The notes under the pieces are model-generated. The model saw nothing but the letters and a program-made list of their open reading frames with translations. It was not told the DNA's origin and searched no databases. Source: Ceratodon purpureus (lineage: Eukaryota > Streptophyta > Bryopsida > Pseudoditrichales > Ditrichaceae). From it: 64,000 nucleotides of DNA. The position numbers and the translations under genes are program-made. Shown in pieces: positions 27,255 to 50,545 of the stretch. The stretch is from assembly GCA_014871385.1 (NCBI GenBank), contig CM026426.1, positions 42,117,613-42,181,612 on the forward strand, written 5' to 3'. How positions within the stretch are numbered: position 1 is the stretch's first letter; each line of letters starts with the position of its first letter.

Positions 27255-27479
27255 GGTTTATTAGATTAGTGGTATAAGTCTTCTGCATGAGATGGCATGT
27301 ACATGTGGATAAGTAGCAAAGTTTGTAGTGGTTTGTTGTTAATTTTTATTAGTTGTAGATGAAGGAATATTTGTTTAGAGGTAGGGATTTTAGTGGTGTT
27401 GCGTGGATATGTATATTTGTGATTTAAGAGAGTGATGAAAATGACTGCAATAAGATATTGGATGATAATTGAAAGATGA

Positions 27480-28505: not shown

Positions 28506-28537
28506 CATTAGAGACCATTTCGGGTCATTGGAAGGCC
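28506..28537 (+). repeat. Left terminal inverted repeat
   Basis: Begins CATTAGAGACCATTTCGGGT and is identical for 32 bases to the reverse complement of 50,514-50,545. After that only short words, such as GGGCAGT at 28,553, recur at the other end. Confidence 0.9.
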
Positions 28538-28954
28538 TTTTAAGGGAGGCTTGGGCAGTACTCTCAAGCAAATTTTCACCTCGGGCACGGTGCCACTGTG
28601 AGGCACAATTGAGTTCGGGCAGCCCTTTAGCGTCGCTGTCAGTCCCTGCGTGGGTACAAGAGAGCCTCGAACGTGGCCTGAGTGTCATCGTAGGCCCGCA
28701 CCTTGCTAAACCCATCCTGCTAAATCAATGATGAAAGTGGAATTGGAGTGGTACCCCAGCAGATCATTTTATACTATTTCAGATCATTTTATACTATTTT
28801 GAGGTAGATCAAGTTGGCGCGAAACACTGCCAACGCAGCGAGATGTGGCGGGAGAGCGTGTGCGAAAATGTCGACTAGGAACTTTGTGTAGTCTGAGGCA
28901 ATTGACTTAGATTCAGGGAGGTTAGAGATTGCAGCGGGGTTTAGGTGCTACAGC
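28538..28954. promoter_or_regulatory. Subterminal and leader region of the recombinase-like gene
   Basis: No gene is seen between the left inverted repeat and the first ATG. A 20-bp unit, CAGATCATTTTATACTATTT, stands twice in perfect tandem at 28,760-28,779 and 28,780-28,799. It could be part of the promoter or a binding site for the element's own recombinase; both are guesses. The ATG at 28,955 follows about 150 bases later. Confidence 0.5.
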
Positions 28955-31900
28955 ATGGCGTTGAGAGATGTTACAAACTGTGTTGCTACTCCGTATGTCC
29001 CGCAAATCAAACTGCACCCGAGGTTTGCTCCGTTGATTAGAAGAGGACAAAGGTTAGAAGATCAGCCTACACCGGAGAGCTTTGTAGAGAGGAGAGCAGC
29101 AAATGAGACACATATCGACCTCTGGATCGATGGCAGAATCTACCCATTAGATCCGGCGACGAAGCAACCACCTCTGTTTCGGACAACCAAGCAATACATC
29201 GAATATTGCTGTGAAGGAGAGAATGGTATGTTAGGATACACCAAGCGGTTGAGCTACGGTCACACTGAGGAAGGACAGTTGAATTCGGTAAATCGGCTGC
29301 AGCAGGAGGTGAACAGTCACGAGCGTTGCATCATGCAACTACGTGCGCAGTGTGAGGATTTGCAAGTGAAATTGGACAATATGACCCATGATGAAAACCG
29401 GCACATAGAGGAGCGACTAAAGCTAGAAGGGGACATTAGGACTTTGGAGATATCGTGTACGGAATTGAGGGTGCTAGTGGCCCAATCTGATGTCGCGAGG
29501 GGTGAGTTCAGGGAACGCGAGGAGCAGTTTAGTGCTTTAGAGGCCGAATTGAGAAATCAGAGAAAGGCTTGTGAGAAGCTCCAAGAGAAGATGAAGAGAA
29601 TGGTGAAAACGCCGCTTGGATTTAGGGAGCGTGTCCACAGTCGTAAAATGAAGTGTCTGGATGAGCTTGCTCCTGGCTCCGGCCACGCAAAGCGAAGGAG
29701 AACTGCGCTACGATATCAGATTCAGCCATCGACAGTGTCACAAGTGCAGGAATTCAACAAGCGACAAGGAAGGAAGAGGAGGCTCGGGGGTGATGGAACG
29801 TTGCACAACAAAACAGCTTCAGTTCTTGCTAGTGTATTGTCTGCAGGTGAGGCTCGCAAGCTTGCGGAGCAACCACGAATGAGTCAAGCAACTACAGCGG
29901 CCGCAGTGTGTATTTTCAAGAAAATTAAGAAATCGATAACAGAGGAAGTGATGTTGGGGACTTGTGATGCATCTGGCGTGAGTAATAGAGGATATGTGGC
30001 GATGTGTAATGCCGTAAAACATCGGGTTCAGTTAGTTGCTCCAGAACTAAAGGGTGGTCTTTTGCCATCGAAGCACCGCCTAGCGCTGTTGCGAAAGCAG
30101 ATGAATGAGAAGCTTCCTCAATTTATAGGAGACTACTATCAAATAAAAGGTCGCCGAATAATTCCCGAGGTCAGGGTTGGGAAGAAGATTGTGCGAGGAG
30201 CAAAAGAAGTTATTCTTGATGACAAGAACAATCTCTTCGCGGAGCTGGAGGTTGTGCAGCGGTCGATGGTGCTGTTCTATGACATGACTATGGAAGGTAA
30301 CGTCGTTCATTGTCACCTAAATTTTCAAGGTCTGTGAACTACTATGGGACATTGTGAAGTAAACTGTAGTGAAGTTCGAATGCACCACGAGTTATCGTGA
30401 AGAATTACATTGAAACTCAGAAATTGATGGGAAATGCTGAAGCAAGATTAACTTGGCTGGCTCCATAATTGCCTTTGTAAGAAGAACAAATGAATAGAGA
30501 ATTTGTCAACGATAGGTAACTTGACATGATGCACCGTCCATGGATAATACCAACTGTCAGAATAGTGGTGCATCAACAATTCACGGTGTGGTTTTCCAGT
30601 GGCATTGCTGAAGTTGCTGGATGCTTGTGAAAAAACTCTAAGGGGATCATTGTCTCATAGTGGAACGTGAAACACAAATTTGTGGAAGTGCTGTGCGGTC
30701 AAGGCGTTGATTCATTGTGCAGCTGCAAACAGTCGCTTAATTAATGCCTCATACCAATTATGACCAAAATATTTCAAAATTAATAATTGTGGAACCTGGT
30801 TGCTGTACTACAAACTGGAGTCTGTTCTAATAAGTACACTGTAGATTAATTTGGGGCAACATAGTATTACTTTGTGCTGGGTCTTATTATAAATTCGTAT
30901 TGTGCAGAGTGCAATGGCCGGCCATTGGTCTTCGTGCTAAAATTGGACGAAGCAGAGGTGTTGCGGGAGAAGAAGTTTGAACGTGTGAGCCTGACTCTGA
31001 TGAATAGGGCCCTCGATCCCGAGATTCAACGCAATGATGAGAGATATTTTTCGGTCCAGAGTGAACAGGAGATTTGGCCCATTGGGTGCTTCCAAGTGGA
31101 GAAGGAGTCTCACGAAATCTTGAATTGGGTATTTGAGCAGACAAGATTCCCTGAGGTAATTGCGGCTCAGAATGCAGGCCAGTTGCTGGAGGTACCGGGC
31201 CGTGGATCTTTCACGGTTGAGTGGCACTTGTCAGCGGACATGAAGACAATTAAGTGTATGAACGGGCTGCAGCATGGACCTAGCTGTAAAATGAACTGCA
31301 TTTACTGCGAGCAGAAGCATGAGAGAGCCAAGACCGTGACAGCTGCTGACGCCGAACGTACTGCTACGACTAGAGGGAAGGGTGAATGGCAAGGAGGCTT
31401 GTTCGCATCAAGGATTCGAGCTGAACCAGTTGATGCAGCCACGCACCCACGTTGGAAGCAGGTGCTACCTATCCCTCTATCACGGACCCACATGTGCACA
31501 TTACATGCTTTGGTCCAAATCTGTGAAAAAATATTGCATTTGCATTTTATGTTTATTTGGAACATGCAAGACAACGCTAGGAAAACGGAAGCTATAGATC
31601 TCATGGAGAAGTCACTATCTGCCATTGGCGTGGAATCGGGAAACTGTGTGCTAAAGCAAGATGTGAAAAAATCTGGGAAGTCTGGTAATGTGGTTATGAA
31701 ACCCAGCTTGCGTGGTGGAGTGGCCATAAAGTTATTTGGTCCTAGTTCATGGTCGACTCATACCAGAGTGTGGAAAGACGTCACTATGTCCGAGATGAAT
31801 AATCTAGAGAATGGTCAAGCGAAAATCAAACGACAGAGAGTGTGGGAAACGCTAGAGGACCTGGTGCCGTACTTCACTGGACTAGTGTTGTCACCAGATC

Positions 31901-32699
31901 AGAGACGGGATTGCAAACATCGGATGGATGCTTTCGGAGCAGCATATATCAATGCATTCGGGGAAGGCCACGTCACGCACTACATTGTGAGTTTTTGGTG
32001 CCATGTCCATTGTTAATGAAGTTTTCAAGTAGTTGTGATTGAGATCATGGTACATGTAAATACTGCTGCACAATTGTAATTCGGATGTGTCGAAGGCTTC
32101 GTTGGGATCCATTTGAAATGTGCATGTAGCTGTTCTTCATTCATGCTGAAGCTCGAATCTGGACATTGCAGCATGCTCTTATAAAGCACGGCCCTTGGTT
32201 TGTCGAAAAGTATGGTAGCCTTTCTGTGTGGAGCTGCCAGGGGATGGAGAAATCGCACCACGTGGCCAAATCGTCAAGTCAGGCACATTCTCAGCATGGG
32301 GGGACAAAGGATCGAACTAGTGTAGTTGTTCAACAATATGAATTTTGGTATCGAAACATACAACATAGGTACGATGCAAAGTTGAAGAAGAGGATTGCTG
32401 ATGCAGAGTTAGGCCTTCCCGATGTAGAGGTGCAGGCTGCAGGATCGAGACGGCGGGATGCTTGGCATGCTTCCAATGCTGCGGCAGCATGTCGTGAGTG
32501 GCGAGCGGCGCGCACACGAGAAGGTAGGCGTTATGTGATTGCTTCAACTGAAGGAGAGGCCGTTCAGGCAGAGGATGAAACTTCACCGGGTTCTGGCAAC
32601 AGCAACGACATGGATGAAGAACTGACGGAGTCGTCGCAATGTCCAGATGAGACACAGGATTCTACTCAATCAGATTACGGTGTCACTGATATCACATAG
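28955..32699 (+). CDS. Putative DDE recombinase, RAG1/Transib-like motif spacing
   Basis: Predicted exons 28,955-30,296, 30,908-31,986 and 32,172-32,699 give 982 residues. Splice sites are GAAG|GTAACG...GTGCAG|AGTG and CATT|GTGAGT...TTGCAG|CATG, with phases matching. Residues about 105-215 form a coiled coil; KRRR near 245 and KRQGRKRR near 270 look like nuclear signals. The core has D461 (LKLDEAE), D558 (SADMK), C578-x2-C581 (NCIYC), H808-x4-H813 (HALIKH) and E833 (QGMEKSHH). D-to-C is 20, the H pair spans 5, and H-to-E is 20. RAG1 has 19, 5 and 20 (D708, C727/C730, H937/H942, E962). The D-D and D-E gaps (97, 275) are also near RAG1's (108, 254). The C-terminus is acidic. Overall sequence is not close to RAG1, so it may be a separate DDE family. 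All frames are intact. Confidence 0.65.
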
Positions 32700-32945
32700 G
32701 TACATGGTGCTTGTCAGTATACACTTAGTTGAAAGAGGTAAAGATGAACGGCCACAATTATCATCTCTTCAGAAACCTGATTTAACTGTTGTATAAATTG
32801 AATCTGTGTAATTTGATATCTTGACGCAGCACATGTTATCATTCACCCTAGTGAATGCAATTGTCAAAAACTTCAGAAACTTCCAAGCTGAGTTCTCCCT
32901 AACATATGTGTACGCATGTTGGGCCATCAATTTTGAGGGTGATGG
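32640..32945 (+). repeat. Direct repeat A (3' end of the recombinase-like gene)
   Basis: About 300 bases, starting in the last codons (CCAGATGAGACACAGGA) and running through the 3' flank to GGGCCATCAATTTTGAGGGTG, recur at 35,880-36,178 in the same orientation with only scattered differences. Confidence 0.9.
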
Positions 32946-33253
32946 ATGAGTTGTATTATAGCTTACTGAAGTACATTAAAAAAATGGTTACATGCAGGTG
33001 TGATGCCGCATTCCTCAACAAAAATGAACAATGACTTTACCACGAAGCAACATTCAAATTGTAATCAATCAAAGCAGAGGCAAGAGTGGGTTTTTGTATG
33101 TCATTGTTGACATTTTATGTGAATAAAAAAATTGGGATTCATGCTGAAGCAATAACATGGCAAATGTGTTTATCCTGGCAGTAATAGTTCAAAAACGGAT
33201 CCATGTAGTATACTAAATCCAATTTGACTACAAGGAATATCTGAAGAACTAAT

Positions 33254-35314
33254 CTACCCGTCATTGGTCTCGTCGTCCTCAACCTCTGCGGCCGCATCCT
33301 TTGCAATCGCCAACAGTTCCATGACAAGTTCGTCGTTGGAACTTGACAAGGTAAGTTCCCTTGGTGATTTCGTTCCGATCTGCGAACGGCACGGACTTTC
33401 AGACAGGTTCGGCATGGCTTCATCATCGATGTCCCCTTGTATATCGCTGCTAGCGTCCGAACTGACTACACGCTTTGGAGAGACATCATAGGTTTCATAT
33501 GGGCGCTCCACCTTGTCTACGGTAGTCTCCGAGAGCGTAAAGTCGGAAACTGCGTGGGCACGTTTGGAAGGTCCACGTACTGCTTCAACATTGCAATCTA
33601 GGGCAGTACGCTTCCGCACCTTCAGTCCAGCCTGAACTGCGGCTCCAGGCTTTGCAATCTGCCTGACCAAGTCCTGTGCCTCCTTACGAGAGAGCGGTGG
33701 TGCACATCCCTCCGCGGACATGCATGCACGCCATGCTTCGATACTTGCCTGCATAGTTGCATCATTCGAAACAAGGCCCCACTGCCCCATCCAAACCCCG
33801 CTTGGAACCTCATCACAACAAGGACATTTTGGATTTCTACCGAGCACAATCTTGAACATGCAACAAGGATGAAATAAGCAACCGCATGGGAGATTGACCA
33901 GAGCCATGTCTGCCCAAAAGCGGCCGCACATCCCACAGGGGAGGTCTCCTTTGAGTCTTCTCATTCCTGTCGGTGCAACAGGGAAAGACGAGAAGAATTG
34001 CTGTGGGCGAACACAGCTCTCTTCTATAATAATGACATCGACTTGGCGCTCTATGTCTTGAAGTAAATTAAACAAGGTACGAACCTGCTCACCTAACGAC
34101 TTTACTCTCTCGCTCTTTTCTACCAGTGCCGCCCGGTTCTCCTCAACAGCTGCGCTAGCCTTACCGCATGCGGATGATACAGCTCGCACCTCGTTCTGCG
34201 CCGCAACTCTTGCGGAAGCATCACAACCAACGCCTTTTTTAGCTGATTGTAGCATGGCGAACTTGTCCCAAAGCTCCTCCTCTGCCCTCACGAGCGTCTG
34301 TCCATGCACCTGCTCGTCCTTAAGCTCCAGCTGCCTCCGCTCCAGCTCAACGGTCAGTTTGTCGTGCTCCGCCTGAACATGTGATTTTCTGCGTAGTAAA
34401 CCTGAGACCTTCGATCCCTCTCCGTGCTGACTTGATCCCTTTGAGACCTTCGATCCCTCTCCGTGCTGACCTGATCCGTTTGCTTTCATGGATCTGCGCT
34501 GGCGTGGTGTGGTAACCTGCGTCACTGGAACGTCGACATATGCTGCGGCCGGAACCATGCTCAGTTGCTGCCGTGGAGCTTGCTGAGAATGAAGAACTCC
34601 CGACAATGCGTGATCTATATGAGCCTCTGGGTCCACGCTGACTTTAGCGGCCTGCAGCTGCCGAATCGCTGTCGCATGGGCCAACTGCAAACGACCAACA
34701 AGATGCTGAAAAAAATCTAACAAAGCTTGGATTTGTTCCCGTATGCAGGGCGGCGTCATCTTCTGCGTGGAGTGGCGCATTGATGTCTTCATACGGTGTG
34801 AAGCCAACTCCGCAGCCCCCTCAGCCCAATTCACCTTAAGGTCCCGCGATTCAAGTTCCACTCCACGCAGGAACGCAGTCCCATACTCACCATTATCTGG
34901 ACCACATCCACCATGCACCTTCTGATGCATGCGTTGTATCTTCCAAATGTCAAGTACATTCTCCATCAGTCGCATGGGGTGACGGTTCCCGGTTCGATTC
35001 AGCGGATACTTGCGAGATAGCTCCAGCGTGGTGAGCCCGTGGTTGTTCTTGAGCTTACGAAACGGAATTCCTTCGTTACAGAGCCCTCCAACTTCTGCAA
35101 AAAAAGAACAGGTATACTCAGCCTGCTCGCTACCCATGAGGAATGGTGCACGGCGTGTCATTGCTTTACGCATCGCCGGGAGGAAATGGTCAATGCTGAA
35201 GGCCTCTCTCCAAACAGTGAGGTCCGTTGCAAGTAGCTCTGGATTCTCTCCGTCGCCGCCTGAGTCAACAGGAGAACCACAATGCGAAGCAGGTCTCACT
35301 TTAACACGCGCCAT
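33254..35314 (-). CDS. RING-finger/coiled-coil cargo protein 1
   Basis: A single uninterrupted frame gives 686 residues from ATG 35,314 (MARVKV), or 692 from 35,332. The N-terminal ~200 residues contain SFFAEVGGLCNEGIPF and align with the N-terminus of the RING protein at 41.9 kb. Next come a helix-rich part, a 13-residue tandem duplication (QHGEGSKVS twice, 34,403-34,480), a coiled coil around residues 320-440, and then a RING-type zinc site near residue 466: CGMCGRFW...CGCLFHPCC...CPCC. The tail is acidic. RING proteins usually act as ubiquitin ligases; whether this one does is unknown. It lies opposite to the recombinase-like gene between the two ~300-bp direct repeats. No relative outside this window comes to mind. 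Confidence 0.7.
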   Translation of the reverse strand: MARVKVRPASHCGSPVDSGGDGENPELLATDLTVWREAFSIDHFLPAMRKAMTRRAPFLMGSEQAEYTCSFFAEVGGLCNEGIPFRKLKNNHGLTTLELSRKYPLNRTGNRHPMRLMENVLDIWKIQRMHQKVHGGCGPDNGEYGTAFLRGVELESRDLKVNWAEGAAELASHRMKTSMRHSTQKMTPPCIREQIQALLDFFQHLVGRLQLAHATAIRQLQAAKVSVDPEAHIDHALSGVLHSQQAPRQQLSMVPAAAYVDVPVTQVTTPRQRRSMKANGSGQHGEGSKVSKGSSQHGEGSKVSGLLRRKSHVQAEHDKLTVELERRQLELKDEQVHGQTLVRAEEELWDKFAMLQSAKKGVGCDASARVAAQNEVRAVSSACGKASAAVEENRAALVEKSERVKSLGEQVRTLFNLLQDIERQVDVIIIEESCVRPQQFFSSFPVAPTGMRRLKGDLPCGMCGRFWADMALVNLPCGCLFHPCCMFKIVLGRNPKCPCCDEVPSGVWMGQWGLVSNDATMQASIEAWRACMSAEGCAPPLSRKEAQDLVRQIAKPGAAVQAGLKVRKRTALDCNVEAVRGPSKRAHAVSDFTLSETTVDKVERPYETYDVSPKRVVSSDASSDIQGDIDDEAMPNLSESPCRSQIGTKSPRELTLSSSNDELVMELLAIAKDAAAEVEDDETNDG

Positions 35315-35879
35315 GTCAGGAAAAGAGCGCACTGGTTAGGAAGAGGAGAATGTGTATAGGGTCAATAGATAGAATGTTGAAGCAACTGAAGACTACTGAA
35401 GACTACAGTAGCAAGAAGTGCAACGGAGTTGGCTGCCTAAGCAAGATAAGCTTCAAGCCTGCTTTGGGAGGTAAGTGCGACGCCGTGGTGATGTTTGCTG
35501 CAGTCCACTTCTTGGTTACTGCCTTTGGTTGCAAACATGATTTGATTGAAACACTTCGTTTACGGCAACTGTACATGGTACTAGTGTAGTTATATTTTAA
35601 GGAATTGACTTGCTGAATTCTGTATGGCGCGAGGATTTAACGGTGGATACTCTGAAGTCAAAGGGTAAGCATCGCCGGCTTTAGCCGCCACGCATTCTCG
35701 TAAGTTAGTTAGTGGGGATGTTGTATAGGACGAATTGAGAGAACCTTTATAATTTTGTATTTGAAACCACATGTCGGGAAACTAGAACTACCAATGAGAT
35801 GGAATCCGAGGTCGCAGTTGTACATTAGAGGGACATCGGCGGGCCGACTTGTTTAAGTGTACACAGCATTGTAAAATGA

Positions 35880-36178: not shown

Positions 36179-38329
36179 TTTAGGACAGGAGTTTAATGAA
36201 ATAATATGAATTCCTTTGTTTCCAAGTCAACGGCCTTCCGGTACCCATGTCTGAGCTATTAACGTTGAATAGAGCTAATTGAGGAGCTATATCTCGCACA
36301 GTGATTAAGGTGGAATTAGTTCTTATCCAAGTTCTACTGAAACTCGATTTTTCATTCATCTATTTTTCATCCACCCATCAATGATAACATATGAATGTTT
36401 CCTTTAAAATTCAAGAATCACAAAAACTGTTTTGACCCTTGCAATGCTTCAGCGTCCTATGGTTTAGATGCTTCAAATTGGATTGAGTTCTATGCAACCC
36501 AATTAAGGAGGGATTAATTCTCATTCATGTTTCATTGAAACTTCAATTTTCAGTCATCTGGTTTTCATCCATCCACAAATGATGCACGTGGACTTCAATG
36601 TTTCCTTCAAATTTCAGCAATTACAAAAACTGTTTTAACACTTGCCATGCTTCAGTGTTTTTTTTTTTTTTTTTCTAGTTCTTCTAATTGGATTGAGTTC
36701 TGTGCAAACCGATTGAAGGAAGGATTTGTTCTGATTCATGTTTCACATAACTTCATTTGTCATTCTTTTGTTTTACCTCCATCCATAAAAGAAAAGGTCA
36801 CTGTTATGTTTCTTACAAATTTCGTAATAAGGGACTCCCGTTCTCACCCTTGCCATGCTTCAATGCCTTTTTCTTTTATTTGGTTCTAATTGGGGAGCTA
36901 TATCTCGCACAGTGATTAAGGAGGAATTAGTTCGTATTCATGTTCAACTCAAACTCCAATTTCCATTCATCTATTTTTCATCCACCCTTAAAAGATAACA
37001 TATAAATGTTTCCCTCAAATTTCAGTAATTACGAAAACTGTTTTGACCGAGCCTCCATGCTTCAATGCTTTATTTTTTATTTTTATTTGGTTCAAATTGG
37101 GTTCAGTTCCATTCATACTGAATAGGGGTGTGTTCTTTCTTATTCATATTTCACCGAATCTGGCTTCTTCCGAATGTTTCCTTCAAATTTCAGCAATTAC
37201 AAAAACTGTTTTAACACTTGCCATGCTTCAGTGTTTTTTTTTTCTTTTTTTTCTAGTTCTTCTAATTGGATTGAGTTCTATGGAAACCAATTCAAGAAGG
37301 ATTAGTTTTCATTCATGTTTCATTGAAACTTCAATTTTCAGTCATCTAGTTTTCATCCATCCACAAATGATGCACGTGGACTTCAATGTTTCCTTCAAAT
37401 TTCAGCAAGTATGAAAATTCTTTTGACCCTTGCCTTGCTTCACTGTTTTTTTTTTTTTTCTAGTTCTTCTAATTGGATTGAGTTCTATGGAAACCGATTC
37501 AAGAAGGATTAGTTTTCATTCATGTTTCATTGAAACTTCAATTTTCAGTCATCTGGTTTTCATCCATCCACAAATGATGCACGTGGACTTCAATGTTTCC
37601 TTCAAATTTCAGCAATTATGAAAATCCTTTTGACCCTTGCCATGCTTCAGTGTTTTTTTTTTTTTTCTTAGTTCTTCTTTTTGGATTGAGTTCTATGGAA
37701 ACCGATTCAAGAAGGATTAGTTTTCATTCATGTTTCATTGAAACTTGAATTTTTCAGTCATCTAATTTTCATCCATCCACAAATGATGCACGTGGACTTC
37801 AATGTTTCCTTCAAATTTCAGCAATTATGAAAATCCTTTTGACCCCTGCCATGCTTCAGTGTTTTTTTTTTTTTTCTTAGTTCTTCTTTTTGGATTGAGT
37901 TCTATGGAAACCGATTCAAAAAGGATTAGTTTTCATTCATGTTTCATTGAAACTTTAATTTTCAGTCATCTAGTTTTCATCCATCCACAAATGATGCACG
38001 TGCACTTCAATGTTCCCTTCAAATTTCAGCAATTACAAAAACTGTTTTAACACTTGGCATGCTTCAGTGTTTTTTTTTTTTTTCTAGTTCTTCTAATTGG
38101 ATTGAGTTCTGTGCAAACCGATTGAAGGAAGGAATTGTTCTGATTCATGTTTCATTGAAACTTCAATTTTCAGTCATCTGGTTTTCATCCATCCACAAAT
38201 GATGCACGTGGACTTCAATGTTTCCTTCAAATTTCAGCAATTAGAAAAAACTTTTTTGACACTTGCCGTGCTTCAATGTTTTTTTTCTTTTTTTTTCCCA
38301 TAAAGAAGAAAAAACAAAAAAATGATATT

Positions 38330-38516
38330 TTGGCACTCCAACTGTGCACTAGAAAGCGTGGTGGGGTGGGTGTCGGAGGGTGGATTCGAACCCGGCACCA
38401 GCACCCTGGGGCTGCCACGACAGTTCGAACCCGAAGCCTCGGATCACCAAGCCACCAAGGCTTTGACGAAGAGAATGTTCATCATGAGCATATATATATG
38501 GAACCTGAGTTCCTAA
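38330..38516 (-). repeat. tRNA-derived module, copy 1
   Basis: Read on the minus strand: AGGAACTCAGGTTCC, an A-box-like TGGCTTGGTGAT, a first GGGTTCGAACTG and a second B-box-like GGTTCGAATCC. This arrangement fits a tRNA-derived SINE. It is intact in all boxes. Confidence 0.7.
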
Positions 38517-38667
38517 AAATTGATAAAAAAAATAAAAAATTAGCATCTCCATGAAGCAAGTTCTTGAATTTGTTATTTTCGGTGTCGACCGCTTTTAACC
38601 AGTCACTTTTTTGATTATGTGCACCGCTACTTGAACATGCTTCAGTGGTGTTATGCTTTCTTGTGTT

Positions 38668-38850
38668 TATGCTTGACCCAGGCTTCTTTGTTGTATGCTT
38701 AGGAAAGGAACAATACTACTATAGCATTCAAGTGGGGCTAAAACTCTAGTTTAATTCTGTAATTATGAAACGTCCCTCAAGTACCCCTGAACATCGACAT
38801 CTTAAATACAAGTTAACTGAAATAATCAATCGAATTTTTTTGGCTTAGTC
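38668..38850 (+). repeat. Direct repeat C1
   Basis: The stretch starting CATGCTTGACCCAGGCTTC... matches 41,378-41,545 in the same orientation, and in reverse complement 45,790-45,980. It is a non-satellite spacer that marks the order of segments in the arms. Confidence 0.85.
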
Positions 38851-40872
38851 CGGGATGCACAGTATCTGAGGGTCAAGATTAGTTCAGTTTGATGACAATC
38901 TGAAACCTGGTTTTCCATTTTAATGTTTCATCATCCTTGCCATGCTTCAGCGTCCAATGGTTTAGATGCTTCAAATTGGATTGAGTTCTATGGATACCGA
39001 TTAAGGAAGGATTAGTTTTCATTCATGTTTCATTGAAACTTCAATTTTTCAGTCATCTAATTTTCATCCATCCAAAATTATGCACGTGGACTTCAATGTT
39101 TCCTTCAAATTTCAGCAATTATGAAAATCCTTTTGACCCTTGCCATGCTTCAGTGTTTTTTTTTTTTTTTTTCTAGTTGTTCTAATTGGATTGAGTTCTA
39201 TGGATACCGATTCAAGAAGGATTAGTTTTCATTCATGTTTCATTGAAACTTGAATTTTCAGTCATCTAGTTTTCATCCATCCACAAATGATGCACGTGGA
39301 CTTCAATGTTTCCTTCAAATTTCAGCAATTACAAAATTCTTTTGACCCTTGCCATGCTTCAGTGTTTTTTTTTTCTTTTCTTGTTCTTCTAATTGGATTG
39401 AGTTCTATGAATACCGATTAAGGAAGGATTAGTTTTCATTCATGTTTCATTGAAACTTGAATTTTTAGTCATCTAGTTTTCATCCATCCACAAATGATGC
39501 ATGTGGACTTCAATGTTTCCTTCAAATTTCAGCAATTATGAAAATTCTTTTGACCCTTGCCTTGCTTCACTGTTTTTTTTTTTTTTTCTAGTTGTTCTAA
39601 TTGGATTGAGTTCTATGGAAACCAATTCAAGAAGGATTAGTTTTCATTCATGTTTCATTGAAACTTGAATTTTCAGTCATCTAGTTTTCATCCATCCACA
39701 AATGATGCACGTGGACTTCAATGTTTCCTTCAAATTTCAGCAAGTATGAAAATTCTTTTGACCCTTGCCTTGCTTCACTGTTTTTTTTTTTTTTCTAGTT
39801 GTTCTAATTGGATTGAGTTCTATGGAAATCAATTCAAGAAGGATTAGTTTTCATTCATGTTTCATTGAAACTTCAATTTTCAGTCATCTAGTTTTCATCC
39901 ATCCACAAATGATGCACGTGCACTTTAATGTTCCCTTCAAATTTCAGCAAGTATGAAAATTCTTTTGACCCTTGCCTTGCTTCAGTGTTTTTTTTTTTTT
40001 TTCTAGTTCTTCTAATTGGATTGAGTTCTGTGCAAACCCATTGAAGGAAGGAATTGTTCTGATTCATGTTTCATTGAAACTTCAATTTTTAGTCAACTGG
40101 TTTTCATCCATCCACAAATAATGCACGTGGACTTCAATGTTTCCTTCAAATTTCAGCAATTATGAAAATCCTTTTGACCCTTGCCATGCTTCAGTGTTTT
40201 TTTTTTTTTTCTTAGTTCTTCTTTTTGGATTGAGTTCTATGGAAACCGATTCAAGAAGGATTAGTTTTCATTCATGTTTCATTGAAACTTGAATTTTTCA
40301 GTCATCTAATTTTCATCCATCCACAAATGATGCACGTGGACTTCAATGTTTCCTTCAAATTTCAGCAATTATGAAAATCCTTTTGACCCCTGCCATGCTT
40401 CAGTGTTTTTTTTTTTTTTTCTTAGTTCTTCTAATTGGATTGAGTTCTATGGAAACCGATTCAAAAAGGATTAGTTTTCATTCATGTTTCATTGAAACTT
40501 TAATTTTCAGTCATCTAGTTTTCATCCATCCACAAATGATGCACGTGCACTTCAATGTTCCCTTCAAATTTCAGCAATTACAAAAACTGTTTTAACACTT
40601 GGCATGCTTCAGTGTTTTTTTTTTTTTCTAGTTCTTTTAATTTGATTGAGTTCTGTGCAAACCGATTGAAGGAAGGAATTGTTCTGATTCATGTTTTATT
40701 GAAACTTCAATTTTCAGTCATCTGGTTTTCATCCATCCACAAATGATGCACGTGGACTTCAATGTTTCCTTCAAATTTCAGCAATTAGAAAAAACTTTTT
40801 TGACACTTGCCGTGCTTCAATGTTTTTTTTCTTTTTTTTTTCCCATAAAGAAGAAAAAACAAAAAAATGATA

Positions 40873-41058
40873 TTTTGGCACTCCAACTGTGCACTAGAAA
40901 GCGTGGTGGGGTGGGTGTCGGAGGGTGGATTCGAACCCGGCACCAGCACCCTGGGGCTGCCACGACAGTTCGAAACCGAAGCCTCGGATCACCAAGCCAC
41001 CAAGGCTTTGACGAAGAGGACGTTTATCATGAGCGTATATATGGAACCTGAGTTCCTT
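40873..41058 (-). repeat. tRNA-derived module, copy 2
   Basis: Same elements as copy 1, with the A-box-like and both B-box-like words kept. The first B-box context differs by one base (GGTTTCGAACTG on the minus strand). Confidence 0.7.
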
Positions 41059-41095
41059 AAAATTGAAAAAAAAAGAAAAAAGGAAAATTTTAAAT

Positions 41096-41282
41096 ATGGC
41101 ACTACAACTGTGCACGAGAAAGCGTGGTGGGGTGGGTGTCGGAGGGTGGATTCGAACCCGGCACCAGCACCCTGGGGCTGCCACGACAGTACGAACCCGA
41201 AGCCTCGGATCACCAAGCCACCAAGGCTTTGAGGAGGGGGATGTTCATCATGAGCATACTTATATGGAACCTGAGTTCCTAA
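41096..41282 (-). repeat. tRNA-derived module, copy 3
   Basis: Placed head-to-tail about 40 bases from copy 2. The first B-box-like word reads GGGTTCGTACTG, a one-base change, while the second (GGTTCGAATCC) is intact. Confidence 0.7.
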
Positions 41283-41377
41283 AAATTGAAAAAAAAAGAA
41301 AAATGGGAAATTTAAAATCTGGTGGCTTCATGAAAGTGGACACCATGCGTAAGCAACCGAAGCAAGGCAAATTGACC

Positions 41378-41931: not shown

Positions 41932-43377
41932 ATGGTGTACCACAAGAAGCGGAAGTCCGGACAGGGTAGCCCTTCAACGCCAAAGCTCCGAAACACGCCC
42001 ACTGTCGAAGACGACGAAGATGCCAGAAGTGGCGACGACGAAGTGGAGGGTCTTGCTGCCGCGTATGACTGGGCCAGCTCCGAGTTTGATGCTCCTTTTG
42101 ACCTCACGGGAATTCCGGATGCTGTGCAGGACAAGCTGCTGGCGGCGGCGCCAGTGCTACGTGGCAGAAACGCTGTGTATGAACACAGCTTCTTCCGCGA
42201 CGTTGTTGGCCTATGCGACCGGGGACCATTGGTGGACGACGTCGGTAAAGCGTACCCGCAAATCACGGAGGCGTCGGTGAAGCAGGTCTGGAGGATTGGA
42301 GCGCAGCCGAACCGATTCGAGGTCGCAAACTGCGCAGACAAGGACCAAGCACACCTCTTCCTCCAGTTCAACTATAAGGTGTATGGAAATCGGCCCGAGA
42401 ACTTCTACTTCGCAATGCGTTTTCTGAAGGCGGCCTTTGCAACCTTTGTCCACGGTTTCGACGTCAATTGGGTTGCTGAAGCAGAGAGACGTCGTTCGAA
42501 GCGCCTGGCGACAGCAACGAAGAACCCAATGAAGCTCGGTCCCGTCGCTCTACGCCGTCAAATTGAGGGACTCTGTGGCATTCTGAAGGAGGTGACCACT
42601 GGAGCTCCAGCGCATCGGTCGGTGCCCGCCTCCGTTGTAGCAGCGCAGAAGATGGTGGACGACGCTGTGGAGTGTGAGGCCAAAGCATTGGTTGTTCTTC
42701 AGGAGATCTCACGCCGACAGGATGACGCCACGCGGAGCTTGATGAAGATCACCATCGACGACATTGGCAGAGTTGAAGCAGAGCATACCGACGCCGTGAA
42801 GGAGCTCCAGCGTGTCTTCCGAACCGGGACGTCGGTGCAGTACAAGGAGCAGGCTGATGCAGCACGTGTCCTGTCGGTGAAACTGACGCAGATGCAGGAA
42901 GAGCATATGTTGGCTCGTGACACCGTCAACTCCCTCACTCAAGCCAATGGACCTGTGGAGCACGCCAAAGCAGAGCATTCGAAGGCGCAGGACATGGTGA
43001 AAGAAGCACAGGTGGAGTTGTGGAGCGCTAAGCGAGAGAATCTCATACTACGTCCTCGACCTGTGTTTAAATTCCCCTTCAATCAGTCTGTTCCACCAAT
43101 CTCCTCGCCGATCCTCCCCGAAATCTGCCCACTCTGCGACAGAGGGTTTGTTGCAAAAGCAGCAATCCTGGGGCCTTGCAACTGCCTCTTCCATGCAGTT
43201 TGCATTGCGGAGATGGTCGATGCTGCTCCAGCTTACATCTGTCCCACGTGTGAAGTGAGGATGGATCCAGCTTGGATAGCACAATTCAACGGCAAGGTCA
43301 CTGAAATTGAAGATGACGAAATTGAAGCCACTCATCGGAAGTTAGAGGATGTCGCAATGTACACATTCGGCTGCTGA
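41932..43377 (+). CDS. RING-finger/coiled-coil cargo protein 2
   Basis: One open frame gives 481 residues. After a basic start (KKRKSG) and an acidic stretch, residues about 75-200 align with RING protein 1: APVLRGRNAVYEHSFFRDVV and GLCDRGPL here, and SFFAEVGGLCNEGIPF there. A coiled coil follows at about residues 210-385. The RING-type site starts near residue 399: CPLCDRGF...CNCLFHAVC...CPTCEVRMDP. A short acidic tail ends in FGC. The gene occupies the centre between the two inverted repeat arms, with its own unique flanks (41,545-41,931 and 43,378-43,650). ATG 41,932 is the first in frame. The link to protein 1 is by order of motifs and shared words; identity is low. Confidence 0.7.
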   Translation: MVYHKKRKSGQGSPSTPKLRNTPTVEDDEDARSGDDEVEGLAAAYDWASSEFDAPFDLTGIPDAVQDKLLAAAPVLRGRNAVYEHSFFRDVVGLCDRGPLVDDVGKAYPQITEASVKQVWRIGAQPNRFEVANCADKDQAHLFLQFNYKVYGNRPENFYFAMRFLKAAFATFVHGFDVNWVAEAERRRSKRLATATKNPMKLGPVALRRQIEGLCGILKEVTTGAPAHRSVPASVVAAQKMVDDAVECEAKALVVLQEISRRQDDATRSLMKITIDDIGRVEAEHTDAVKELQRVFRTGTSVQYKEQADAARVLSVKLTQMQEEHMLARDTVNSLTQANGPVEHAKAEHSKAQDMVKEAQVELWSAKRENLILRPRPVFKFPFNQSVPPISSPILPEICPLCDRGFVAKAAILGPCNCLFHAVCIAEMVDAAPAYICPTCEVRMDPAWIAQFNGKVTEIEDDEIEATHRKLEDVAMYTFGC

Positions 43378-43787
43378 ACTTCCGCACACGCAACCTGATC
43401 TGCTCTGTTCCACAAACTCTAGGACAAGTTTTCTATAAACACTCTTGATGTGCACTCACTTCTGAACTTCACATTTGCTTGTAAATGTTGCTTCGACCGT
43501 TGGTTTCCGTCGCTTGAACTTATTGAAGCCACATTTTGAAAACCACGGTTGTTGCATTCTAAACTTCCAGTTACCGTACCCTTAATGTGTTTAAAAACCA
43601 TCTGAATTTCACTACTTTTGTATTCCAAGTTTATGTGTTAATAGACATCGATGTTTACAAGATGAAATATGCTTCATATTTTCTCAATTTGCCTTGCTTC
43701 GGTTGCTTACGCATGGTGTCCACTTTCATGAAGCCACCAGATTTTAAATTTCCCATTTTTCTTTTTTTTTCAATTTTTAGGAACTCA

Positions 43788-43963
43788 GGTTCCATATAAG
43801 TATGCTCATGATGAACATCCCCCTCGTCAAAGCCTTGGTGGCTTGGTGATCCTAGGCTTCGGGTTCGTACTGTCGTGGCAGCCCCAGGGTGCTGGTGCCG
43901 GGTTCGAATCCACCCTCCGACACCCACCCCACCACGCTTTCTCGTGCACAGTTGTAGTGCCAT
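43788..43963 (+). repeat. tRNA-derived module, copy 4
   Basis: Mirror of copy 3. The A-box-side sequence reads TGGCTTGGTGATCCTAGG, a one-base change against the other copies. The first B-box-like word has the same GGGTTCGTACTG variant as copy 3, supporting that the two arms are true inverted duplicates. Confidence 0.7.
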
Positions 43964-44003
43964 ATTTAAAATTTTTCTTTTTTCTTTTTTTTTCAATTTT
44001 AAG

Positions 44004-44190
44004 GAACTCAGGTTCCATATATATACGCTCATGATAAACGTCCTCTTCGTCAAAGCCTTGGTGGCTTGGTGATCCGAGGCTTCGGTTTCGAACTGTCGTG
44101 GCAGCCCCAGGGTGCTAGTGCCGGGTTCGAATCCACCCTCCGACACCCACCCCACCACGCTTTCTAGTGCACAGTTGGAGTGCCAAAATA
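44004..44190 (+). repeat. tRNA-derived module, copy 5
   Basis: Mirror of copy 2; it shares the GGTTTCGAACTG variant with it. Boxes are intact otherwise. Confidence 0.7.
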
Positions 44191-46129
44191 TAAATTTTTT
44201 GCTTTTTCTTCTTTAAAGGAAAAAAAAAAAACATTGAAGCACGGCAAGTGTCTAAACAGTTTTTGTAATTGCTGAAATTTGAAGGAAACATTGAAGTCCA
44301 CGTGCATTATTTGTGGATGGATGAAAACCAGTTGACTGAAAATTGAAGTTTCAATGAAACATGAATCACAACAAATCCTTCCTTCAATGGGTTTGCACAG
44401 AACTCAATCCAATTAGAAGAACTAGATAAAAAAAAAAAAAAACACTGAAGCAAGGCAAGGGTCAAAAGAATTTTCATACTTGCTGAAATTTGAAGGGAAC
44501 ATTGAAGTCCACGTGCATTATTTGTGGATGGATGAAAACCAGTTGACTAAAAATTGAAGTTTCAATGAAACATGAATGAAAACTAATCCTTCTTGAATCG
44601 GTTTCCATAGAATTCAATCCAATTAGAAGAACTAGAAAAAAAAAAAAAAAACACTGAAGCATGGCAAGGGTCAAAAGAATTTTCATACTTGCTGAAATTT
44701 GAAGGAAACATTGAAGTCCACGTGCATCATTTGTGGATGGATGAAAACCAGATGACTGAAAATTCAAGTTTCAATGAAACATGAATGAAAACTAATCCTT
44801 CTTGAATTGGTTTCCATAGAACTCAATCCAAAAAGAAGAACTAAGAAAAAAAAAAAAACACTGAAGCATAGCAAGGGTCAAAAGAATTTTCATACTTGCT
44901 GAAATTTGAAGGAAACATTGAAGTCCACGTGCATCATTTGTGGATGGATTAAAATTAGATGACTGAAAATTGAAATTTCAATGAAACATGAATGAAAACT
45001 AATCCTTCCTTAATCGGTATCCATAGAACTCAATCCAATTAGAAGAACTAGAAAAGAAAAAAAAAACACTGAAGCATGGCAAGGGTCAAAAGAATTTTCA
45101 TAATTGCTGAAATTTGAAGCGCACATTGAAGTCCACGTGCATCATTTGTGGATGGATGAAAATTAGATGATTGAAAATTGAAGTTTCAATGAAACATGAA
45201 TGAAAACTAATCCTTCTTGAATCGGTATCCATAGAACTCAATCCAATTAGAACAACTAGAAAAAAAAAAAAAAAACCACTGAAGCATGGCAAGGGTCAAA
45301 AGGATTTTCATAATTGCTGAAATTTGAAGGAAACATTGAAGTCCACGTGCATCATTTGTGGATGGATGATGACCAGATGACTGAAAATTGAAGTTTCAAT
45401 GAAACATGAATGAAAACTAATCCTTCTTGAATCGGTTTCCATAGAACTCAATCCAATTAGAACAACTAAAAAAAAAAAAAAAAAAACCACTGAAGCATGG
45501 CAAGGGTCAAAAGGATTTTCATAATTGCTGAAATTTGAAGGAAACATTGAAGTCCACGTGCATAATTTTGGATGGATGAAAATTAGATGACTGAAAAATT
45601 GAAGTTTCAATGAAACATGAATGAAAACTAATCCTTCCTTAATCGGTATCCATAGAACTCAATCCAATTTGAAGCATCTAAACCATTGGACGCTGAAGCA
45701 TGGCAAGGATGATGAAACATTAAAATGGAAAACCAGGTTTCAGATTGTCATCAAACTGAACTAATCTTGACCCTCAGATACTGTGCATCCCGGACTAAGC
45801 CAAAAAAATTCGATTGATTATTTCAGTTAACTTGTATTTAAGATGTCGATGTTCAGGGGTACTTGAGGGACGTTTCCTAATTACAGAATTAAACTAGAGT
45901 TTTAGCCCCACTTGAATGCTATAGTAGTATTGTTCCTTGCCTAAGCATACAACAAAGAAGCCTGGGTCAAGCATAAACACAAGAAAGCATAACACCACTG
46001 AAGCATGTTCAAGTAGCGGTGCACATAATCAAAAAAGTGACTGGTTAAAAGCGGTCGACACCGAAAATAACAAATTCAAGAACTTGCTTCATGGAGATGC
46101 TAATTTTTTATTTTTTTTATCAATTTTTA

Positions 46130-46316
46130 GGAACTCAGGTTCCATATATATATGCTCATGATGAACATTCTCTTCGTCAAAGCCTTGGTGGCTTGGTGAT
46201 CCGAGGCTTCGGGTTCGTACTGTCTTGGCAGCCCCAGGGTGCTGGTGCCGGGTTCGAATCCACCCTCCGACACCCACCCCACCACGCTTTCTAGTGCACA
46301 GTTGGAGTGCCAAAAT
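46130..46316 (+). repeat. tRNA-derived module, copy 6
   Basis: Mirror of copy 1, embedded in the matching spacer. It has GGGTTCGTACTG rather than copy 1's GGGTTCGAACTG, so the outer pair has drifted or been converted. Confidence 0.7.
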
Positions 46317-47640
46317 ATCATTTTTTTTGTTTTTTCTTCTTTATGGGAAAAAAAAAGAAAAAAAACATTGAAGCACGGCAAGTGTCAAAAAAGTTTTTTC
46401 TAATTGCTGAAATTTGAAGGAAACATTGAAGTCCACGTGCATCATTTGTGGATGGATGAAAACCAGATGACTGAAAATTAAAGTTTCAATGAAACATGAA
46501 TGAAAACTAATCCTTTTTGAATCGGTTTCCATAGAACTCAATCCAATTAGAAGAACTAGAAAAAAAAAAAACAGTGAAGCATGGCAAGTGTTAAAACAAT
46601 TTTTGTAATTTCTGAAACTTTGAAGGAAACATTGAAGTCCACGTGCATCATTTGTGGATGGATGATGACCAGATGATTGAAAATTGAAGTTTCAATGAAA
46701 CATGAATGAGAACTAATCCTTCTTGAATCGGTATCCATAGAACTCAATCCAATTTGAAGCATGTAAAGCATAGGACGCTGAAGCATGGCAAGGATGATGA
46801 AACATTAAAATGGAAAACCAGGTTTCAGATTGATGATAAAAAAGTTTAAATTTTTTTTTAAAAAAAAGTAAAAAAAAAGTAAAAAAATGAAATCCTGAAG
46901 TAAAGTTTCACGTTCACATAAAAGCAAACCAATCCTGATCCTCAAATAGTGTGCACGGAACTGAATTCAAAAAAATTCAAATAAAAAAAAGAAAATGAAG
47001 CAAGGCAAGGTGAAAAACAATATCTATAATTATTGAAATTTAAATTAAGGTGAAGTGGTCAATCAAAGGATGGTTGATAAATGGATGGCTGGCAAATTGA
47101 GTTCTATGTTCACTTCGAAGTGAACTACTCTTGACCCTCAAATAGTGTGCACCAAACGAAATCTAAAAATTATCAAGTTATAGAAAACATTGAAGGAAGG
47201 GAAGGCGGTAAAGAATATCTAAAATTATTGAAATTTAAAAAGAACTTCAAAGTGAACTTAAGGAAGGATGAGAAACGGATGGATGAAAAATATTTTTTAA
47301 GTGAAACATCTGGATGTACACTCTTCTGTCAAATACTCAGAGCTCAAAACTAAATCCAATTAAAATCATTTTAATAAAAAAATTGAAGCAAGGGAAGGGG
47401 AATATCAATATGCATAATTTTCAAAATTACCAGAAACTTCAAAGCCTTTGGTAGATGGATGAGAAATGAATGGATGAAAAGAACAGTTTGAGGTTCTCAT
47501 GAAACTGAATTTCTCATCCGTGGATGCATTCGTAATGATGGATTGTTTGCCAAATAGACTTTAATAATTGAAACATCAAAATGAACCAATTTTTCCTGAA
47601 AGGGTACAAAGTTATTTAAAAAAGAACATTGAATAACAGT

Positions 47641-48155
47641 GAGTAGGATTCAATCAAGGGTGGAATAATAAAAAATCCATAAAATTTAACTTCACGTAAC
47701 CAACCTCAAATATATCATGTTCTCAATCTACACTAAGATGTACCCTGACTGGTACACTTCTGTAGAATCTCCGCTACAGCATGTGTAATCTTTGGTTTCG
47801 GCACCTGCTAAAGCAATAAAATCTCCGCTACAGCATGTGTAACCTTTGGTTCATGTGCATCTAAAAGCAACAGCCGTGGCTTTGAAGTGATTTCTTGGTA
47901 GTAGATTTCCATGTTATCACGTACTTTATATAAAATTTATAGCCGAAATTTGTGATAAATACAAGGAAATCCTTGCCTTCTTCATACAAACAGTAGCATG
48001 CATAATCCATATGTTTTTTTTGCACCGACATTCCTCTAAAAGCACCTCTACATGTTGCACGGTCACCAAGCCAACTAAGCACGGCTACTATCAACATTAG
48101 TGCCGTTTTTGCTGCTCTACTCAAGATGTGAAGAAGTTGCTGAAGCACGATTCCT
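47641..48155. other. Spacer between repeat arm and unknown gene
   Basis: No gene is seen. The word AATCTCCGCTACAGCATGTGTAA occurs twice with one or two changes near 47,766 and 47,820, a short direct repeat about 54 bp apart. Confidence 0.5.
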
Positions 48156-49478
48156 AAACCACCATCTTGAACCTCGCTCCCAAGGGCATGACAGCTTGGA
48201 TCTCGGTGCTTCGTTCCAGCCGCTGGTTTATCTGCATAAACACCATATTCAAAATTCAGCAAGCATATTTGGATCACTTTATACATCTTTCAGTGCAATT
48301 CCTCTCCGATGCTAGAAATGAACTACCTTTCTGTCGGGTCGACCTGGCCACTCGATAACAAGGTCATAGAAGTCCGGGATGTCTTCTCGCGATAAGAGAA
48401 TTGCAATCTCGTTCCTAATTTGGGACACTGGCCATGACTTCCCAACCTCAAATGCCGGCAACACTTCACCCCTGAAAACAACCTCTGCCTTGACCATGTC
48501 TGGAATCACAACCTGATCCATTGCCACCAATCGCTGCCCTTCCAGCCGGAATCTTACGTAGCAGAAGGTCATATATAGAGTCTGTCGTGCTAGGTGGTAA
48601 CGGAAACCCACGGTCCCTTCACTGACTACACATTTGATAATGTCTTGACCACTCTGCCACTTGACATTCCAGCCAGGGTCCATTAAGCTAGCCAAAAGCA
48701 AGGAAGATGGAGATCCGAAGGTGTACATTGCTGGAGTCTGTCGAATGTCATCTGCGACCGCAAATAAATCCGCCATTATATGGACTGGCAGAAACCAGTG
48801 CACGTGGGCAACCTTACTCCCTGTGCTACCCTTCATTGCGGCCGTAACATCCTGTGCCATCTTCAAGCGGAAGGCCTCCGACGTATGCATGTCCGGAATT
48901 GGCCAAAACGGATCAGAGAGCTCTGGGAGAGGCAACGCCTCCAAACTCCCATAAAGCTCGGTACCAGACCGAGGTACATACACCGCTCGGAGAAAAAAAG
49001 TTCCATTCTGAAGCAGCTGCCTATGGCTTCTCCCTTGCCGTCCCGATTCTCCAATCTCATGGTGTAGCACCAAAATCACATCGAGAATAGAGGAAGGTGG
49101 AACCAAGTCCTCCCAGTAGGAGGCGTACAGGAAATTGCAAGTTCGAGGCTCAGTGGCCCCTACAGCAGGATCAAGGTCCAATTGGCGACGCTGGTAAGCG
49201 TGTCGCACTTTCACTGCGACAAGCTTTTGGACAACCTTGCCGCGTACCAAGCTCTCAGTGAACTTAAACCTCACCACTTGTGCCTTCCACGCACCGGCAA
49301 AGGATTCCACACCATGTACACGCGCATCCTTTGCCCAAGCTCCGCGCGTTGCTGGTTTGAGTGTAATCCACGAACCTATCTCAATTCTCAATGGTATCCA
49401 CCTCCCTGTCGTAGCATCCTTGTCGTTGAATATGACAACGCTCTGCACCTCACTTGCGGGAGATTCCTCTGTTGCCAT
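48156..49478 (-). CDS. Unknown 409-residue protein, possible BAH-like N-terminus
   Basis: Predicted exons 49,478-48,327 and 48,231-48,156 give 409 residues. The join AAAG|GTAGTT...TGCAG|ATAAAC is phase 0; reading on without splicing gives four other codons and a stop. The start ATG 49,478 lies just inside an exon whose acceptor (TCTTCAG|GCTGAAG) is 13 bases upstream. Residues about 20-125 (GRWIPLRIEIGSWITL, AWKAQVVRF, FLYASYWEDLVP) resemble the strand pattern of a BAH domain, which binds chromatin; this is only a possibility. The rest is not recognised. It is the last gene before the right inverted repeat and points away from it. Confidence 0.55.
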
Positions 49479-49489
49479 GATCTTCAGCC

Positions 49490-50060
49490 TGAAGACACGC
49501 ACACCGCTTGCTTCAGCTCTAAATCACAGCTACAGCATGATATCCACCGGTCATGTTCAAAAACCCACGTACCTTATCCACCTCTTCAGCACTGCCGATT
49601 CCTGAAGTTACTGCGTGGGGACCGTTGGTGACACGCACACTCCTTGCGTCAGCTCTGAACAACAATCTCATTATGCAATTCAGTTATTCCCGATGGGTGT
49701 ACAATTATCAACGTGAAGTTTAGACCTGCAGAATAATGTCAACAAGTCATGCTAAGAAACTAACTTACCTTGTCCACTTCTTCAGCACCGCCGATGTATA
49801 GTAGGCGCCGTTGGTGAACCTGCACAGCAATCAATTTGCAAGGTGAAAAATCAGCTTTATGCTCAAGCACTGCTACGCCAATTTTGAACGGCAAATACAC
49901 ATTCCTCGGAACCCTGCTCATCACCTATCTACAATACTGTCAATTCGAAGGTCCAAGATTTCTAATAGAGTCAAAGCAGAAATCTAAAGTGCAAACCTCC
50001 TCTCGAGCTTGCATCGGCTCTAAACAACAGCAAACTTTCAAACAATTGTTCATGGCATAA
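49490..50060 (-). repeat. Duplicated 5' exon units upstream of the 409-residue gene
   Basis: Two similar exon-like units lie on the minus strand. One ends GAGGTGGATAAG|GTACG near 49,570 and the other GAAGTGGACAAG|GTAAG near 49,767. Both contain CACCAACGG and a GG(C/T)GGTGCTGAAGA-like core, and the second starts after TTGCTGTGCAG. A GCTTGC(T/A)TC(A/G)GCTCTAAA-like word occurs near 49,508 and 50,008, with a third relative near 49,645. They look like duplicated leader or N-terminal exons of the gene downstream. Confidence 0.45.
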
Positions 50061-50513
50061 AATCACCTTGAAGCACGTTACGACCACCTACTGCAGGAGC
50101 ATCTGCGGCCGCGACAGATGGTTAGCCTCCCCGATTTGCAAGCCGTTGGTTGCAGGTGCTGAGTAAGCATCTCTCCCGCCATCGAGATGTCTCTCTCAGC
50201 GGCTTGGCAAATTATATTCTAATCAAGCTAGTTCCATAAAAAATTCTCCTCTGAAATAGGCCGAGTACCATCGCATGCTTCCGGAGTCACAATCAGTTAC
50301 GGCCATGAAGGGGAAAATAAAATTCTCTATTCCAGTTTTGCAAGTGCACACTTGAGACACAAGTGCAGGGATTCCAACTGGATAAAATCAGAAACGACGC
50401 TCATTGGCTTGGACGGTAGAACTTTTGATGTGTTTTGCCAAATGGCATCACTGGTAACAAGTCACTCCGCCCAGTGTCGATGTCCTATGCTTGGGTTTTC
50501 ACTGCCCGGGAAG
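50061..50513. other. Right subterminal region of the 22-kb element
   Basis: No reading frame worth reporting. It holds GGGCAGT in inverted orientation near 50,501, matching a word just inside the left terminal repeat. Confidence 0.4.
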
Positions 50514-50545
50514 GGCCTTCCAATGACCCGAAATGGTCTCTAATG
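50514..50545 (-). repeat. Right terminal inverted repeat
   Basis: On the minus strand this begins CATTAGAGACCATTTCGGGT and is identical to the left end for 32 of 32 bases. Just outside, reading inward, the right side has CACTA before the repeat and the left side has ATATT, so identity starts exactly at the C. Confidence 0.9.

Follow-up and report, generated by a model that had tools for sequence, protein, structure and literature searches.

A 22-kb element with perfect terminal inverted repeats in the moss Ceratodon purpureus, probably a giant DNA transposon of a new superfamily

Is a 22-kb segment of the Ceratodon purpureus genome, bounded by inverted repeats, a single mobile unit, and to which kind of transposon would it belong? 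The segment occupies positions 28506-50545 of a 64,000-nucleotide stretch of moss DNA (hereafter, the window; C6:42117613-42181612 of the 362.5-Mb genome). An initial annotation, made from the letters of the window, proposed that it is one mobile unit. It is virtually certain that the element is, or was, mobile, and mobility and family status taken together are close to certain. The segment is quite probably a complete giant DNA transposon representing a new and abundant superfamily, with a transposase-like gene and a set of core partner genes. Across the family, the elements are mostly about 18 to 33 kb in size. The element behaves like a cut-and-paste transposon with terminal inverted repeats (TIRs), and no named superfamily fits on the tests made. 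Thus, the kind of element is known, while the superfamily appears to be new.

The left TIR (28506-28537, + strand) begins with CATTAG on the side of the putative transposase gene and is the reverse complement of the right TIR (50514-50545, - strand) at 32 of 32 bases. The 32-base left-end word occurs at these two places only within the window and was found 0 times in 100 shuffles, which rules out a chance inverted repeat; the perfect repeats of the initial annotation are confirmed. The sharp change in composition described there is also real at both ends, as the GC content goes from 0.23 (500 bp outside) to 0.50 (just inside) at the left end and from 0.48 (inside) to 0.24 (outside) at the right end. 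Since the 300-bp flanks of nine other copies have a GC content of 0.33-0.53, the step reflects the AT-rich insertion site of the window copy and is not general to the copies.

Does the element have relatives with the same ends? A 27-bp end word was searched genome-wide with up to three mismatches, and 37 matches were found, against none for a reversed control. Thirty-two of the 37 form 16 inward-facing pairs and five are single, with no wrong-way neighbours within 70 kb. The spacing is 17.8-23.1 kb in 12 of the 16 pairs and 35.7-64.2 kb in the other four. Hence, the search for further end pairs that had been suggested as a check gave a clear positive answer. Ten of the 16 paired elements were read: the window copy (c08), c01, c02, c03, c04, c05, c06, c07, c11, and c16. 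CATTAG was found at both ends in nine of them (c06 has CATAAA at one end), and the 32-bp repeats are perfect in eight (the exceptions are c06 and c11). Among 20 fetched ends, CATTA directly precedes the 27-bp word in 19, and the remaining one (L009) has CATTG. The interior is shared as well: nine of the ten elements keep all four genes, with stop codons in one or more genes of several copies, while c06 lacks the middle of the element. A possible swapping of cargo in c06 was considered and rejected, as its differing middle looks, by eye and from a pol-like frame, like a nested Gypsy-type long terminal repeat (LTR) retrotransposon combined with deletions. This retrotransposon-like insert in c06 (C6:23698298-23719463) is about 13.4 kb long; its outer repeats each hold a 734-amino-acid frame of unknown function, and the two look identical by eye.

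Divergence from the window copy was measured on two end segments per copy. Copies c01, c02, c04, c07, and c16 differ from it by only 1.2-2.9 mismatches per kb, c05 by 8-17, and c03, c06, and c11 by 13-26. The five closest copies lie on chromosomes C1, C4, C6, C6, and C8, respectively, and their unrelated flanks start at the same base. These observations bear on whether the pairs could be an assembly artefact or a segmental duplication of one locus. Some tandem copies, a palindromic arrangement (element A2), and the non-rejoining flanks of element B3 could be taken that way; copies on C1, C4, C6, and C8 with unrelated flanks beginning at the same base, and the existence of uninterrupted related sites, make this explanation extremely improbable. 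In the element bounded by L077 and L078 (C4:1066142-1089327), the two flanks look like perfect inverted copies of each other over about 110 bp, which may reflect either duplication as a palindrome or a fold in the assembly.

Most cut-and-paste transposons leave a target duplication of fixed length, because the enzyme cuts the target with a stagger. What does this element leave? Of 20 flank pairs read, all except B2 and A2 were joined, which gave 18 queries for a genome search; the results for empty sites refer to the best candidates among the matches listed. A junction-spanning match was found for 12 of the 18 joined pairs. The junction of c06 lies within a tandem array of about 140 bp and is uninformative, leaving 11 usable junctions. 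At eight of the 11 (c02, c03, c04, c05, c07, c16, and elements C1 and D1), the query and its best target are equal in length. The highest identity is that of c07 (query/target, 221/221 nt at 100% identity), followed by C1 (220/220 at 98%), c16 (223/223 at 96%), c03 (222/222 at 95%), c04 (219/219 at 94%), D1 (218/218 at 91%), c02 (220/220 at 90%), and c05 (209/209 at 84%). The simplest reading of these alignments is that the element would have inserted at one point without duplication or loss, to within one or two bases.

Several observations weigh against this simple picture. The occupied site is one base longer than all 39 listed relatives in A1 and two bases longer than two relatives at 89% in B5, while in B4 it falls short by 6 of a relative at 80% and by 18 of another at 74%, both too diverged to place the difference. 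Alignments of c03, c04, c05, and c07 to their weaker relatives contain gaps of 1-4 nt, and equal lengths may hide compensating gaps, except in c07, where the best match is exact over its whole length. In c01, a 13-bp direct repeat at -20/+1 is unexplained. No spanning match was found among those listed for six of the 18 joined pairs (c01, the window copy c08, c11, B1, B3, and A3), and the sites taken as empty are copies of repeats at other places in the genome rather than alleles. In element B3 (L069 and L070; C2:15814080-15843481), the right flank belongs to a repeat with 38 further listed copies; all of these matches start at the junction, and none of the 38 carries the left flank, so B3 is not a simple insertion. 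A second B-type end lies 35 kb away. In B3, a flank may have been exchanged by recombination between two elements, or the left side may have been lost. In summary, empty sites were found for several other copies and not for the window copy itself, and the length of the duplication is zero at eight of the 11 usable junctions, with A1 (+1), B5 (+2), and B4 (a difference of 6) departing from it. A zero or near-zero target duplication is highly probable on these alignments, and the confidence is lowered because of B3 and B4. The pairing of ends, the shared interior, and the empty sites of several copies together bear out the proposal of one mobile unit.

Which gene would move the element? A gene at the left end has three exons on the + strand, whose GT..AG borders join in frame to encode 982 amino acids. 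Exon 1 (28955-30296), an open reading frame (ORF) with donor site gaag/gtaacg and relatives in groups A-E of the family (described below), contains a coiled coil and a basic region. Exon 2 (30908-31986) holds the candidate D1 and D2 residues and the zinc-like motifs in conserved columns, and has 113 scored relatives at 56-100% identity. Exon 3 (32172-32699; acceptor site attgcag/CATGCTC), whose start was set at 32172 rather than 32130 by comparison with relatives, holds the candidate catalytic E. In the sequences compared, D1 (in VLKLDEAE) is conserved in seven of seven; D2 (in SADMKTIKCM) in six of seven, with an N in L058; the C-x2-C and H-x-C-x2-H motifs of exon 2 in seven of seven each; and E (in GMEKSHH, within CQGMEKSHH) in six of six. 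In all 15 between-group comparisons, synonymous sites are too changed to correct and the nonsynonymous divergence (dN) is 0.20-0.38, indicating that the protein is under purifying selection.

It is very likely from these features that the product is a transposase, and likely, from the order, spacing, and conservation of the motifs, that it uses DDE chemistry. A point against a DDE fold is that no convincing relative was found in Pfam, NCBIfam, PHROGs, or PDB by sequence or profile. In Pfam, exon 1 gave only weak coiled-coil matches below the cut-off (AAA_13, 18.9 against 36 bits), and exon 2 gave chance matches only. The same Pfam library recognizes DDE_Tnp_4 and DDE_Tnp_1_7 in other elements nearby in the window that are unrelated to this one. 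Of the DDE-like recombinase gene proposed in the initial annotation, the single three-exon gene is present, and the DDE assignment comes from motif order and conservation. A viral or prokaryotic origin was rejected, as no relative of exon 2 was confirmed in IMG/VR or GTDB contigs by pattern and tblastn searches, which miss distant relatives. Similar unnamed proteins presumably exist in other green organisms.

Could another enzyme cut the ends, with the three-exon gene being only a partner? A tyrosine or serine recombinase or some other nuclease would account for the zero duplication by recombinase chemistry; zero duplication is unusual for DDE enzymes, and gene 4, which has no family match, and the RING-like genes of the element recur in the same manner as the three-exon gene. 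On the other hand, no recombinase family was found among the ORFs scanned, the conserved D and E candidates of the three-exon gene follow, together with its zinc-like motifs, the order expected of a transposase, and 32-bp inverted ends are typical of transposases. The involvement of such an enzyme is therefore rather improbable, and the three-exon gene is kept as the putative transposase gene below.

How old and how abundant is the lineage? The exon-2 protein had 113 scored matches of 1053 first-look candidates in the same genome; 18 of the 113 are at 84-100% identity, and the rest are at 56-76%. For five other groups (A-E), the 5′ parts of two copies per group were read. In groups A-D, the copies of a pair agree at 99.0-99.96% of bases until a sharp boundary is reached, beyond which the sequences differ. 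In group E, the identity of the pair is 96.8% and starts at a point within the end, one copy having a shortened end. The element starts with CATTAG in all five groups (in E, as judged from its 5′ ends). A degenerate end pattern with up to one mismatch gave 212 + 187 = 399 genome matches, against 0 + 0 for the reversed control. Among 100 of the 399, neighbours within 70 kb comprise 28 inward pairs, two outward pairs, and one same-way pair. Eight of the nine listed B-type end pairs are 27.5-32.6 kb apart, and one is 51.4 kb apart. Two end pairs are only 646 bp (C6:1413027-1413704) and 6.6 kb (C6:2387755-2394341) apart, which are possible short non-autonomous derivatives.

The distribution among chromosomes is uneven. 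C6 (110.5 Mb, 30.5% of the genome) carries 78 of the 113 scored transposase matches, and young copies are found also on C1, C4, and C8. According to a review (PMC8000587), the C. purpureus genome is 360 Mb, and the U and V chromosomes are each >100 Mb, or about 30% of the genome. Thus, C6 may be a sex chromosome, and its excess may result from insertion preference or from slower loss in a non-recombining region.

This distribution raises the possibility that the element is a very divergent Kyakuja-Dileera-Zisupton (KDZ) giant transposon with an altered duplication length. KDZ transposons are large, with TIRs and accessory genes. PMC12477816 describes giant KDZ elements of up to 30.3 kb that are enriched on Ectocarpus sex chromosomes, and PMC12730594 gives CA..TG ends for some Kyakuja; the 78 of 113 matches on a chromosome making up 30% of the genome would be in line with this. 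However, none of seven exon-2 sequences matched the KDZ profile PF18758, and the duplications reported in PMC12810828 and PMC12730594 are 4-8 bp, against zero at eight of the 11 usable junctions. PF18758 also gave no match genome-wide, a result whose sensitivity was not demonstrated, since the profile gave none in 14 control genomes either. Overall, membership in KDZ is unlikely.

Are the other genes of the element its own, or were they picked up? RING-like gene 1 (33254-35314, - strand; 686 amino acids from the first ATG) and RING-like gene 2 (41932-43377, + strand; 481 amino acids from the first ATG) are related to each other (BLASTP, E 9e-8), in agreement with the two related RING genes that had been proposed. 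Gene 1 has no Pfam match of its own. Gene 2 scores 19.5 bits with zf-RING_2, for which the curated cut-off is 27.3, and is therefore best described as "RING-like". The C-terminal 274 amino acids of gene 2 have 141 scored relatives in the genome at 34-100% identity, and for 92 of these a listed transposase match precedes them at a distance of no more than 45 kb, against two on its upstream side and a random mean of 3.7. Sixty-five elements are marked by such downstream relatives, and 25 of them have two or more. Two RING-like matches (C12:16546894 and C7:7694807) sit in open frames of 3712 and 3767 amino acids, which may be giant gene fusions or tandem repeats that happen to be open. Gene 4 (48312-49478, - strand; 388 amino acids) is transcribed towards the transposase gene in the window copy. 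It remains the unknown gene of the initial annotation, as it has no family match above the cut-off and the searches gave nothing convincing; a BAH-like N-terminus suspected by eye had no Pfam support and is not claimed. It has 106 scored relatives at 54-100% identity. In groups A, B, C, and D, the gene sits between the two listed ends of elements, for example at C4:761917-763056 in 739969-763875, C3:11784792-11785802 in 11770648-11800489, C6:39167456-39168610 in 39143754-39169170, and C2:17942996-17944147 in 17911601-17944846.

Since the RING-like genes and gene 4 recur in other groups, they resemble core partners in an old lineage rather than cargo. A point against this is that 49 of the 141 RING-like matches fall outside the 45-kb interval downstream of any listed transposase match. 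The alternative is a composite, in which a smaller TIR transposon has picked up unrelated genes and the 22-kb gene set is cargo. Internal repeat blocks, a nested insertion, and the end pairs 646 bp and 6.6 kb apart would suit it; the same gene types in groups whose transposases are only 56-76% identical, and RING-like relatives downstream of the transposase far above chance, argue against it. A composite origin is quite improbable.

The foldback-like repeat block described in the initial annotation was also found. Its left arm (36471-41375), internally tandem with units of about 207 and 221 bp, and its right arm (43684-46515) flank RING-like gene 2 in inverted orientation, with inverted matches of up to 894 nt at 98% identity; both arms are built of the ~207-bp and ~221-bp units. 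In the inverted ~221-bp units around the gene (40876-41322 and 43737-44214), a motif resembling a tRNA B box was seen by eye. A tRNA or short interspersed element (SINE) nature of these units had no support from Rfam or ARAGORN, which found no RNA.

How might the element move? The 982-amino-acid product would be a DD(E) transposase of the RNase H fold, in which a zinc insertion separates the second D from the E. It would bind the ends and then cut the element out, and joining would take place at opposite, or nearly opposite, phosphodiesters of the target, in which case no gap would be filled and no duplication would arise. Gene 4 and the RING-like pair would act as partners, most likely in the choice of target or chromatin and in the removal or control of host or transposase proteins, although these roles are put forward only tentatively. 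I lean towards a new eukaryotic superfamily, defined by a transposase outside the known families, fixed partners, blunt (zero-stagger) integration, a noticeable share of the moss genome, and a pile-up on the putative sex chromosome. No description of the family was found in the literature searched; Repbase and most subscription papers are outside that search. With many young giant copies and most junctions lacking a duplication, the geometry of strand transfer is directly testable. That one gene set has been retained in old groups points to a transposition machine of several proteins in land plants, and the accumulation on what may be a U/V sex chromosome could be used to learn how regions without recombination are shaped by giant elements.

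Other elements surround the window copy. A PIF/Harbinger-like element at 18690-21890 has a DDE_Tnp_4 ORF (20525-21337, - strand) and an ORF (19063-19653, + strand) with a weak Myb/SANT-like match below the cut-off, and a second DDE_Tnp_4 (Harbinger-like) ORF lies to the right of the giant element (54484-55047). Fragments of a piggyBac-type transposase (DDE_Tnp_1_7) are found at 11074-12532. Extreme strand bias, with a GC skew of up to about 0.6 and an AT skew of about -0.3, characterizes 1-6500 and 22500-27500. The latter region has frames that look like reverse transcriptase by eye, and the one that was scanned had no Pfam match.

Which known systems does the element resemble? KDZ elements of Ectocarpus, Chlamydomonas, and fungi (PMC12477816) are alike in their size of tens of kb, accessory genes (many giant KDZ families carry extra genes), excess on a sex chromosome (putative here), and haploid-dominant hosts. 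The present element differs from them in lacking a KDZ profile match and a 4-8 bp duplication at the junctions read, and in its ends. A 0-bp target duplication is recorded for Harbinger-related elements (Spy/PHIS) in PMC12730594, which resembles the eight of 11 usable junctions here. However, Pfam found no DDE_Tnp_4 match in the three-exon gene, although it found this domain in the two Harbinger-like ORFs of the window, and the size and gene set of the element differ. Thus, membership in Harbinger was rejected. A Polinton/Maverick element or an endogenous virus was also considered; no protein-primed DNA polymerase, capsid, or packaging ATPase was found by Pfam in the eight ORFs scanned, and Polinton was rejected on this basis.

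The CMC (CACTA/Mirage/Chapaev) and RAG/Transib groups presumably share the D1/D2/zinc/E order and the 97-residue D1-D2 spacing, a likeness that was judged by eye and that no tool supports. RAG1 has a RING in the same chain, and RAG/Transib is defined by CACTGTG ends and a 5-bp duplication, CACTA/EnSpm by CACTA termini and a duplication of 2-3 bp. In contrast, the moss element has neither CACTA nor CACTGTG ends and no 2-5 bp duplication, and its RING-like domains are in separate proteins. Its ends are CATTAG..CTAATG, the three-exon gene has no match to the Pfam CACTA (EnSpm) transposase, and no RAG1 chain was found among the PDB matches to the exon 2 and exon 3 profiles. Finally, the Starships of fungi are also giant and carry multiple genes, with a tyrosine-recombinase captain at one end. 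They were rejected as a home for the moss element, as its left-end gene has no tyrosine-recombinase match; and, unlike the shuffled cargo of Starships, its gene set recurs from element to element.

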